From an uncultured cyanobacterium (GTDB lineage: Bacteria > Cyanobacteriota > Cyanobacteriia > PCC-6307 > Cyanobiaceae): DNA of 44,412 nucleotides. A model generated the notes under the pieces. That model had not been told where the DNA came from. It did not search any database and saw nothing but the letters and a program-made list of their open reading frames with translations. The first letter of the stretch is position 1, and each line of letters begins with the position of its first letter. The DNA lies in contig CAJWUF010000003.1 of assembly GCA_913047395.1 (NCBI GenBank), forward strand, positions 1 through 44,412, given 5' to 3'. The translations under genes and the position numbers were made by a program. Of this stretch, positions 21,223 through 26,992 are shown one piece after another.

Positions 21223-22896
21223 ATGGCTACCACCTCTGCATGGTGGTGGCTGAAGGCCATGAAGCCAAAACGTATTACCGATGATCTAGATCGCTTGCTG
21301 GAGTTGTTGCCTCCTGCGGTTCAGCAGGCTTTGGCTACAACTGAGAGCCGAGAGCAGTTGCTTGAGGTGGTGTTGGATCTCGGCAGAGTGCCAGAAGCTC
21401 GTTATCCGGGGCGAGCGCTGGCTTTAGGAGATCAGTGTCTTACTCGACACGACTTGCAAGCCACCGTTGATCGGTTGGGGCAGTTCGGTGCTGATAACCG
21501 CGCTGGTATTGAACGAACCCTGCATCGAATCAGTGCTATTCGCAATCGCCAGCGAGATGTAGTGGGTCTCACCTGCCGTGTGGGAAGGGCCGTTTTTGGC
21601 ACAGTGGAGATGGTGAGGGATTTACTTGATAGTGGTCAATCGCTGTTGCTGATGGGGCGACCTGGAGTGGGTAAGACCACGGCGCTGCGTGAGATTGCCA
21701 GGGTTCTTGCTGATGACCTGCAGCGAAGGGTTGTGGTGATTGACACCAGTAACGAGATTGCTGGGGATGGGGATATTCCCCATCCCGCTATTGGACGGGC
21801 TAGGCGCATGCAGGTTGCCCTGCCTGAGCATCAACATCAGGTCATGATTGAGGCGGTGGAAAACCACATGCCGGAAGTCATCGTGATTGATGAGATCGGC
21901 ACGGAATTAGAGGCCTTGGCTGCGCGCACTATCGCCGAAAGGGGGGTGCAGCTTGTGGCTACTGCCCATGGCAATGCTTTGGCTAATTTGATTAAGAATC
22001 CAACCCTCAGTGACCTTGTTGGCGGGATTCAGTCCGTCACTCTCGGAGATGACGAAGCACGGCGGCGACGCACGCAGAAAACTGTGCTTGAGAGAGCTGC
22101 GGAGCCGACATTTCCAGTGGCAGTTGAAATGAATTCGCGCCATCGCTGGTCGATTCATGCCGATGTAGCTGCCACTGTTGATCTATTGCTGCGCGGACAG
22201 TCGCCTCGCCCTCAGTTGCGTGAGCTGGGTTCAGATGGATCGGTGCGGCTGGTGGATGCCGAGCCGAGTTGCGCTCTTTCACCTCGTACTCGTCCTGCTC
22301 TGGCGGCTATCCCTCTACCTGATCCCAAGGCACCTTCTGCTCGTGTTGCTTCACCTGCTCAAAAATCTGCTGCCCCAGTTGAGCGATCTGATCAAGGAGG
22401 TTTGCAGGTGCTCTGTTGTGGGATCACTCCCCAGCTTGTGGATGAAGCCATTCGTCGTCATGGCTGGCCCGCTCGTTGGGTAGATGATCTAAATGATGCA
22501 GATGTTGTGCTCAGTATCCGTCAGGGACTTGGTCAGCAGCCGGCTTTGAGGCGTCAGGCTCGTGACTCTCGTGTGCCGATCCTTGTTATTAAGTCCGATA
22601 CCTTGCCGCAGGTAGAGCGTGCCTTGGAGCGATTACTGGCACGCCGCTCTGGCTCGCAGGATCCGCCTCTCCCTTCAGGTTCTAAGGCGGGCGATCGGGA
22701 GGATGCTCTGGCTGCACTTGAGGAGTGCCGGTTAGCAGTGGAAAAGGTAGTGCTGCCCCTTGGAAGGCCGGTCGAGCTATTGCCTCGCAGTGAGCAGGTA
22801 CGTCAGATGCAAGTTGATTTGGTGACGCGTTATCGCCTGCGCAGTGATGTTTTTGGCCAGGCAGATCAACAGCGATTGCGGGTTTATCCCCCTTGA
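21223..22896 (+). CDS. Ycf45-like AAA ATPase with R3H-type C-terminal domain
   Basis: Conserved cyanobacterial and plastid P-loop ATPase related to stage III sporulation protein AA; its role is unknown, possibly nucleic acid binding. The 557 residues show Walker A GRPGVGKT at 145-152, Walker [14 protein letters not shown] near 225, and the sensor-like VATAHGN. A Pro/Ala-rich linker lies at about 350-390, and a C-terminal segment (around 500-557) resembles the R3H single-strand nucleic acid binding domain: [20 protein letters not shown]. The ATG at 21223 begins a short extension; [10 protein letters not shown] at residue 13 may be an alternative start. It follows ldpA after 10 nt. Confidence 0.85.
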
Positions 22897-25265: not shown

Positions 25266-25505
25266 TTACCTGACATCAGAGGGGCCCCACCACCCTGCCG
25301 CTGGGCCCACAAAGCGTCCCACGATCCAATAAACCACCATCAATCCCATACCAATCCAGGCTCCACGGGTAGTGATTGCATAAAACTGATCTTTTTGCTT
25401 ATGGGTGATGGGAAGCCAGGCAAAGATCCTGGGGGAGTCATCTTTTTGGGATTTTGTTTGGCGTGGTGCCAGGCCCTGATCGGATCTACGTCGGGCTTCA
25501 CCCAT
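25266..25505 (-). CDS. Small membrane protein, DUF2839-type
   Basis: A 79-residue protein of a conserved cyanobacterial family. It starts MGEARRRSDQGLAPRQ, the family's recognisable N-terminus, then a basic and polar region. One hydrophobic segment (about residues 47-70: GAWIGMGLMVVYWIVGRFVG) is a likely membrane span. Function unknown. It is convergent with recA and lies about 40 nt downstream of the helicase-like gene's stop on the same strand. Confidence 0.8.
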   Translation of the reverse strand: MGEARRRSDQGLAPRQTKSQKDDSPRIFAWLPITHKQKDQFYAITTRGAWIGMGLMVVYWIVGRFVGPAAGWWGPSDVR

Positions 25506-25546: not shown

Positions 25547-26992
25547 TTAATCCGGTAATAGGCGTTGCAGGGGTGTCCAGGGTTCGAGCGCACGTAGTAC
25601 GTGTTTACCCCAGCTTCGTCCCCTTATACGTCCATCGAGGATTGCAAGTCGTCCTTGACTTTTTCGGAGTGGATCTACCGCTGGAGCTAGCAGGCTTAGG
25701 GCTTCTGGTAAGAGAAGGTCGCGGAACCAGTCGCGACCCTGATGCTTCAGACATTCCACTCGTGCTGCAGTTAGAGGTGATTCCACGCTGGCTAGGGGCA
25801 GTAGAGCCACGATTATTTGTTCTGGCAGTGGCAGTTGTTCGTGGTGCTCAAGCCACCAGGCCCAGCGGCAACAGATGACCCCATTGGATTCCGGAGCGGT
25901 GGTTTCATGAACGACCCTTCGGCCAAATTCAGCTGCCAACTCACTGGTGAGTTGATGGCGGAGTTGTTGATCGTTCAGTAACACCACACTGATGTTTTTA
26001 CGCCCCAAGATCAGTCGTCGGCATTGATCAAGCAGATGCTCTGCATAGATTTCCGTATTTGGTAGTGGTTGTCGACGTGGCGCAAAAAGGGGTATTGGTT
26101 CTTGCAGGTTGGGTTCGCTCAATGTGGCCACAACTGTGGCGGGAAATTCTGCAGCGTCTAATTCAGCTCTAACGAGATCTTTGGGTTTTGATCCCGTCAG
26201 CAGGACAGTTGGTTGGTCTCGTAGTAAGCCAGGAAGATTTTGGAGAGGTTCGAGTGGTTCTAAATGCCATCTCCACTGCAGCAGTTTGTGATCGAGTTCG
26301 GCCCAGCTTGCCCAGAAACGGCTATCGGTTTTTAGTAGTGCAGGCCATGGTGATGGTGAGGGGCCTAGAAGTCTCATCAGGTCTTTGAGGGCCATGATTT
26401 CACTGCCATCTAGTCGCACCTGAGCATCAATGCGGGTGGCATGTGTAAATAAGCTGCGGCTTATTCGTTCGTGCAGCTGCATCAGAGAAGCGTCTGCAGA
26501 AGGGTGTGCTCGTCGTAATTGCTCCCAGTCGTGAGGTGTGATCGATAAGGCCATCGCAGCCCTAAGTCGAGTACTTAGGTGTTCAGCTTCTGGAATGATT
26601 AATTGCCTGGATTTGAGGTGCCCCTGCTGGTGCGCTTCAATCAGCTCAATCGGGTTCATCAGCCAGAGTTGATTCCCAGAAGGAGGAACGGCTCCTTCCC
26701 AGCAAGCGAGCTGGAAGCCTTCTGATTGCAGCAGTGGCAGCTCTACCTTCAACAGTCTCCGCCGCTGCTGCTCGGAAAGAATCAGCACTGCCTTATTTGT
26801 CTCTAGGCAGAGAGGAACAAGTAGAGCAAGCCACCAGAGGTCTTTGCTGCTTGGCTCGAGTTGGATCAGGGTGTGATCCTGGCGTCTCAGACTGCGGGCA
26901 ACGAGGCGGCTCAGTGTGAGGTGATGGGGCCAGGGTGAGGAGTGCCGCAGCAGTAGGTGCTTGAGCTGCTTATGAGTGCGGGCTTCCAGCAT
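25547..26992 (-). CDS. DinG/XPD-like helicase homologue with degraded ATPase motifs
   Basis: The 481-residue protein aligns by eye with DinG-type helicases. At the N-terminus the segment LVPLCLETNKAVLILSEQQ resembles the strand after a Walker A, but the preceding GxGKS is replaced by EPSSKDLWW. The DEAH position reads LIIPEAEHL. The C-terminal half has the second-lobe feature LGRKNISVVLLNDQQ and the DinG-like ending LDGRIRGRSWGKHVLRALEPW, with the usual QGxGRxxR motif VI degraded. It therefore probably lacks ATP-driven unwinding and may act as a structural or DNA-binding relative. It is divergent from tyrA; the 87-nt gap holds a dyad. The assignment rests on remembered motif patterns. Confidence 0.6.
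   Translation of the reverse strand: MLEARTHKQLKHLLLRHSSPWPHHLTLSRLVARSLRRQDHTLIQLEPSSKDLWWLALLVPLCLETNKAVLILSEQQRRRLLKVELPLLQSEGFQLACWEGAVPPSGNQLWLMNPIELIEAHQQGHLKSRQLIIPEAEHLSTRLRAAMALSITPHDWEQLRRAHPSADASLMQLHERISRSLFTHATRIDAQVRLDGSEIMALKDLMRLLGPSPSPWPALLKTDSRFWASWAELDHKLLQWRWHLEPLEPLQNLPGLLRDQPTVLLTGSKPKDLVRAELDAAEFPATVVATLSEPNLQEPIPLFAPRRQPLPNTEIYAEHLLDQCRRLILGRKNISVVLLNDQQLRHQLTSELAAEFGRRVVHETTAPESNGVICCRWAWWLEHHEQLPLPEQIIVALLPLASVESPLTAARVECLKHQGRDWFRDLLLPEALSLLAPAVDPLRKSQGRLAILDGRIRGRSWGKHVLRALEPWTPLQRLLPD

Follow-up and report, generated by a model that had tools for sequence, protein, structure and literature searches.

A protein of 481 aa encoded in the 44,412 nt stretch of cyanobacterial DNA analyzed here (the window) is a DinG/XPD-fold protein without ATPase motifs. 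It belongs to a type already described, the "sDinG" that a 2025 review of DinG-like proteins defined from Nostoc sp. PCC 7120 (PMC11981726), and our family fits that description, which is the basis of the assignment. The review reports that sDinG has no Fe-S domain, lacks the ATP-binding residues and has a plugged ATP site, lists it for the Nostocales, Chroococcidiopsidales and Pleurocapsales, and states that its function was not studied (PMC11981726). Beyond the review and passing mentions, we found no literature on the function of sDinG, DUF1815 or DUF2839. New here are the near-universality of sDinG, its vertical origin, the purifying selection on it, a recurrent sDinG-DUF2839-DUF1815 cassette and rare clean losses. 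Because a motorless version has been kept under strong selection in almost all cyanobacteria since their common ancestor, sDinG probably does another job than unwinding.

Table 1. Features of the sDinG locus, with positions in the window.
Feature	Position	Strand	Basis or remark
sDinG-type pseudohelicase CDS, 481 aa	25547..26992	(-)	Frame, family membership, predicted fold
Newly invariant N-terminal block, residues 21-36, WPHHLTLSRLVARSLR	26885..26932	(-)	Replaces DinG Q-motif Arg/Gln
Degenerate Walker A (motif I), residues 46-54, EPSSKDLWW	26831..26857	(-)	Aligns with GTGSGKS
Degenerate Walker B (DEAH), residues 134-137, PEAE	26582..26593	(-)	Alignment
Shortened Arch-like helical insertion between motifs II and III, residues 153-221; no Fe-S domain	26330..26536	(-)	Alignment and model
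Counterpart of DinG P motif, residues 398-406, LPLASVESP	25775..25801	(-)	Both prolines in 57/57
DWFRDLLLP, residues 421-429; F423 aligns with E. coli DinG F638	25706..25732	(-)	W422, F423, L428 and P429 in 57/57
Degenerate motif VI, residues 436-443, APAVDPLR	25664..25687	(-)	GR Arg is P in 45/57, R in 0/57
Second-lobe C-terminal block, residues 452-462, LDGRIRGRSWG, noticed in the initial annotation	25607..25639	(-)	D453, R455 and R459 in 57/57
Small DUF2839 protein (79 aa) with a single strongly hydrophobic stretch; recurrent partner, 41 bp downstream	25266..25505	(-)	Neighborhood survey

Fold and Family Assignment

The initial annotation had proposed a DinG/XPD-like helicase fold in an intact frame of 481 codons, and both proposals hold. 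The ORF is unbroken from an ATG start. An AlphaFold2 model, built from an alignment of 71 rows (the window protein plus picocyanobacterial loci), has a pLDDT of 91.1 and a pTM of 0.87 and superposes as a whole on DinG, with DinG-like MD1, MD2 and Arch. The top Foldseek match in the PDB is E. coli DinG (6fwr, E 4.9e-18, TM 0.75 by query length). Among the 50 PDB matches shown, the best 39 are DinG, CasDinG, XPD or TFIIH-type helicases, except for one chain named Hna; the assignment to superfamily 2 therefore stands.

Sequence models see less in the single protein. Pfam and NCBIfam give weak C-terminal matches only, to Helicase_C_2, DinG and YoaA, far under the curated cut-offs. The NCBIfam scores are 37 bits (cut-off 598) and 33 bits (cut-off 680); both are below threshold, although this shortfall is a weak criterion alone since canonical DinGs from the phylum likewise score below. 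A weak Pfam match to KH_PARP14_4 was dropped, being under its cut-off and given no support by the AlphaFold2 model. At the family level, 35/35 scanned members match the NCBIfam models of YoaA and DinG, the best with an E of 4.6e-32, and a profile of 35 relatives matched E. coli DinG (6fwr) among PDB sequences with an E of 2.7e-11 over stretches in both lobes. The profile match extends beyond the C-terminus to the surroundings of motifs Q/I.

The window protein shares with sDinG of Nostoc PCC 7120 its cyanobacterial host, two motor lobes, a compact Arch, the missing Fe-S domain and the absent ATP-binding residues. The review describes an extra short helix after strand 1 (before helix 3) at the nucleotide site of the Nostoc protein (PMC11981726), where the ATP-site region of our model has only a 3-residue helix (47-49) after strand 41-45. 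The window copy is also more eroded, with PEAE in place of the DG[AV]D found in many sDinG copies from outside the picocyanobacteria. With YoaA and DinG of E. coli (6fwr) it shares the fold, the order of elements, the P motif, DWF..LP and LDxR..[KR].[YW]G. Both E. coli proteins are Fe-S helicases that run 5'-3' on ATP and have every motif; the window protein has no ATPase motif, lacks the Fe-S domain and is shorter by about 150-230 residues.

Loss of the Motor

We placed the motifs by aligning 57 family members with eleven canonical DinGs of the phylum and with E. coli DinG and YoaA. None of the hallmarks of an active helicase (Walker A, DEAH, motifs III, V and VI) is found in the window protein. 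The initial annotation had read the P-loop as replaced by EPSSKDLWW, DEAH as replaced by PEAEH and motif VI as eroded, and the alignment confirms each of these readings. At the position of the Walker A Lys the 57 members carry W (26), Y (24), H (4), F (2) or C (1), and never K. PEAE in the window protein retains the E and A of DEAH, while D has become P and H has become E. DEAH is gone from the family as a whole, with D replaced by P or another residue in most members and H by E, D or G, one member excepted. The SATL of canonical DinG aligns with TGSK, and QGFGRLIR with PAVDPLR. By alignment, SAT, GVD, QGxGR, the motif VI Arg and the Fe-S cysteines occur in 0/57 members. The Fe-S cysteine columns are gapped in at least 56/57 and hold Cys in none; the Fe-S region is deleted. 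The motifs have not moved, and the alignment found no alternative P-loop or DEAH elsewhere in any of the 57 proteins. One copy, likely from Gloeobacter (see below), retains relics: SGSG in motif I, DGAH for DEAH and QRG in motif VI.

Across the family 70 alignment columns are at least 90% conserved. In the N-terminal block W21 and R29 are 100% conserved and H23 and R33 96%; W21 occupies the position of an invariant Arg in DinG. The invariants restricted to the family are E3, H7, W21 and R29 at the N-terminus, with R33 near-invariant, and L344, A353, G357 and R359 in lobe 2. The P motif of E. coli DinG touches ssDNA, as does its F638, which stacks on deoxyribose (PMC6300356).

Distribution, Ancestry, and Selection

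One sDinG copy is listed in 139/141 sampled genomes of the class Cyanobacteriia, Prochlorococcus included, and the two genomes without it are of the same genus. The range thus extends from the three orders named in the review to nearly all sampled Cyanobacteriia. Other classes of Cyanobacteriota have a canonical DinG or no match. The DinGs of the non-photosynthetic classes (L071-L079) are among the canonical DinGs closest to the family in DWF(K/R)xYxLPEA and LDxRL; unlike sDinG, they have DEAH and QGFGRLIR intact in 9/9, and motif I and the Fe-S cysteines are present where aligned. A canonical DinG accompanies sDinG in only 2/60 relatives, L080 (in genome G048) and L081 (G055) being the only canonical Fe-S DinGs among them; L080 shares the likely Gloeobacter genome with an sDinG. 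The initial annotation had proposed looking for a second active copy, and we found no canonical DinG in the window's genome, which is 86% complete.

In a maximum likelihood tree the sDinG family is a single clade (UFB 100). The basal copies come from a genome that also carries a canonical DinG, which we take to be Gloeobacter violaceus PCC 7421, and from one further genome, presumably Synechococcus JA-2-3B'a. This basal branching agrees with the expected species order, and the topology fits vertical descent of sDinG from the class ancestor. The loss of the ATPase motifs seen in the initial annotation was real, but it is no picocyanobacterial event. The motifs are absent class-wide, a recent picocyanobacterial erosion is ruled out, and the data support a loss ancestral to essentially all Cyanobacteriia. 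A scan of viral contigs gave no relative that would indicate phage origin or carriage.

The suspicion that selection holds a form without ATPase activity is also supported. Between the window sDinG and close relatives dN/dS is 0.09-0.11, compared with 0.13 for the neighboring tyrA and 0.04 for recA. Together with the presence of sDinG in 139/141 class genomes, a dN/dS near 0.1 puts the pattern well outside what chance would give. The sDinGs of high-light Prochlorococcus (L029, L090, L210-L212) sit on a very long branch of 1.96 substitutions per site. They are still constrained, since dN/dS within the clade is 0.15-0.19, close to that of tyrA. The branch length points to a burst of substitution when the clade arose, with purifying selection still acting.

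Losses are rare. In one picocyanobacterium (L215, G029:C1:389500-397500) sDinG is cleanly deleted while tyrA, DUF2839 and recA are still in order, making this genome a natural knockout. In two genomes of one genus (G058 and G318, family f23, 99% complete) sDinG and DUF1815 were not found and DUF2839 is kept, a possible co-loss.

Genomic Context

DUF2839 lies immediately downstream of sDinG on the same strand in 26/47 loci, with a median gap of 69 bp. The protein has an N-terminal MGEA[KR]RR motif and a hydrophobic stretch typical of a membrane helix. It occurs in 54/60 relatives and is missing from seven genomes of other classes. DUF1815 is downstream of sDinG on the same strand in 17/47 loci; it turned up neither in the window's genome nor in its sampled Prochlorococcus relatives. 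Where sDinG has relocated, DUF2839 and DUF1815 frequently still form a pair. On the divergent side, tyrA lies upstream of sDinG in 17/47 loci and Psb28 is the neighbor in 6. Elsewhere in the window (21223-22896, + strand) is an AAA ATPase in which a SpoIIIAA-like region is joined to a C-terminal domain; Pfam identifies this domain as PTPase (PF25516).

Two contextual clues were discarded. recA adjoins sDinG in 12/47 loci, 10 of them picocyanobacterial, and we dropped it as a functional clue because its adjacency is largely confined to that group. A strict dependence of DUF2839 on sDinG is ruled out by the genome in which DUF2839 survives the deletion. Since DUF2839 outlives sDinG and is not adjacent to it in the basal genomes, a physical sDinG-DUF2839 complex is not implied.

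Possible Functions

We give an about even chance to sDinG being a DinG/YoaA-type XPD helicase turned motorless fold that serves DNA maintenance as an ATP-independent nucleic-acid scaffold or loading platform. This is the likeliest role, and a plausible one. Loss of the Fe-S domain and of every ATPase motif from a DinG/YoaA-type ancestor would date to the last common ancestor of the Cyanobacteriia or earlier, the motorless fold then being retained across the class. The protein would neither bind nor hydrolyze ATP, which should be impossible because the nucleotide site is filled, with an aromatic residue in place of the Walker A Lys in nearly all members. An AlphaFold3 model of Nostoc sDinG set DNA on lobe 2 only, and ATP could not be placed (PMC11981726). 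Single-stranded or forked nucleic acid may sit passively in the groove that lobe 2 has kept (P motif, DWF..LLP), although the invariant residues of this lobe could serve structure instead of DNA binding, and many members have I or L in place of the P-motif Phe. The invariant surfaces WPHHLTxxRLVARxLR at the N-terminus and LAAEFGxRV in lobe 2 may bind a partner, and the co-oriented DUF2839 protein could provide a membrane link. A fuller scenario, which we offer tentatively and consider improbable as a whole, has an ancestral Fe-S DinG/YoaA becoming a motorless, Fe-S-free nucleic-acid scaffold, with canonical DinG retained in the likely Gloeobacter genome and lost almost everywhere else, and the scaffold joining DUF2839 and DUF1815 in a membrane-linked module for cyanobacterium-specific genome maintenance.

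It is possible, if unlikely, that sDinG has instead abandoned nucleic-acid work for a photosynthesis- or membrane-linked role with DUF2839 and DUF1815, the groove residues being kept for the fold alone. sDinG and DUF2839 turned up in the photosynthetic class and in none of the sampled non-photosynthetic classes, and the membrane-like stretch of DUF2839, the loci with divergent Psb28 and the lack of both sDinG and DUF1815 in family f23 point the same way. Yet the adjacency of Psb28 and tyrA is patchy, Prochlorococcus keeps sDinG without DUF1815, and the best-conserved part in common with DinG consists of second-lobe nucleic-acid elements.

We think it quite unlikely that the nucleic acid is RNA and that sDinG takes part in rRNA maturation as a structural pseudohelicase instead of maintaining DNA. 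The model for such a role is Utp25, a validated SF2-fold pseudohelicase of ribosome assembly in the eukaryotic SSU processome, which like sDinG has an SF2 fold without ATPase function and is under selection (PMC9539457). Utp25 is of the DEAD-box type and RNA-linked, and has no family-level kinship with sDinG. XPD-type grooves accommodate single-stranded nucleic acid, and a study in Listeria reports a DinG exonuclease serving rRNA quality control (PMC12774634). Against this, the sampled class-wide loci contain no recurrent ribosomal or RNA neighbor; ribosomal genes lie near a few picocyanobacterial loci only.

It is very improbable that sDinG is an active helicase whose ATPase motifs are displaced or non-canonical: the overall fold is intact, but the motif positions hold Trp/Tyr, Pro and Ala, no member has a substitute P-loop or DEAH, and the Nostoc protein could not be modeled with ATP (PMC11981726). 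The least probable reading, a decaying pseudogene or neutral relic, is contradicted by the measured selection. The three genomes without sDinG (one by clean deletion between intact neighbors) and the long high-light Prochlorococcus branch might speak for it; against it stand a dN/dS of about 0.1 that stays low even in that fast clade, frames that are open class-wide and the many highly conserved columns.

Implications

Kinases and nucleases offer well-known examples of pseudoenzymes. Among helicases, Utp25 is the only pseudohelicase called fully validated in the literature we found (PMC9539457). In sDinG, nearly all cyanobacteria, even streamlined Prochlorococcus, hold a dead helicase under strong selection, and almost none of them has the active version. 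An annotation of "helicase" or "DinG" in cyanobacteria is usually wrong on activity. With sDinG, laboratory cyanobacteria allow a direct test of what a helicase fold does once its motor is gone.
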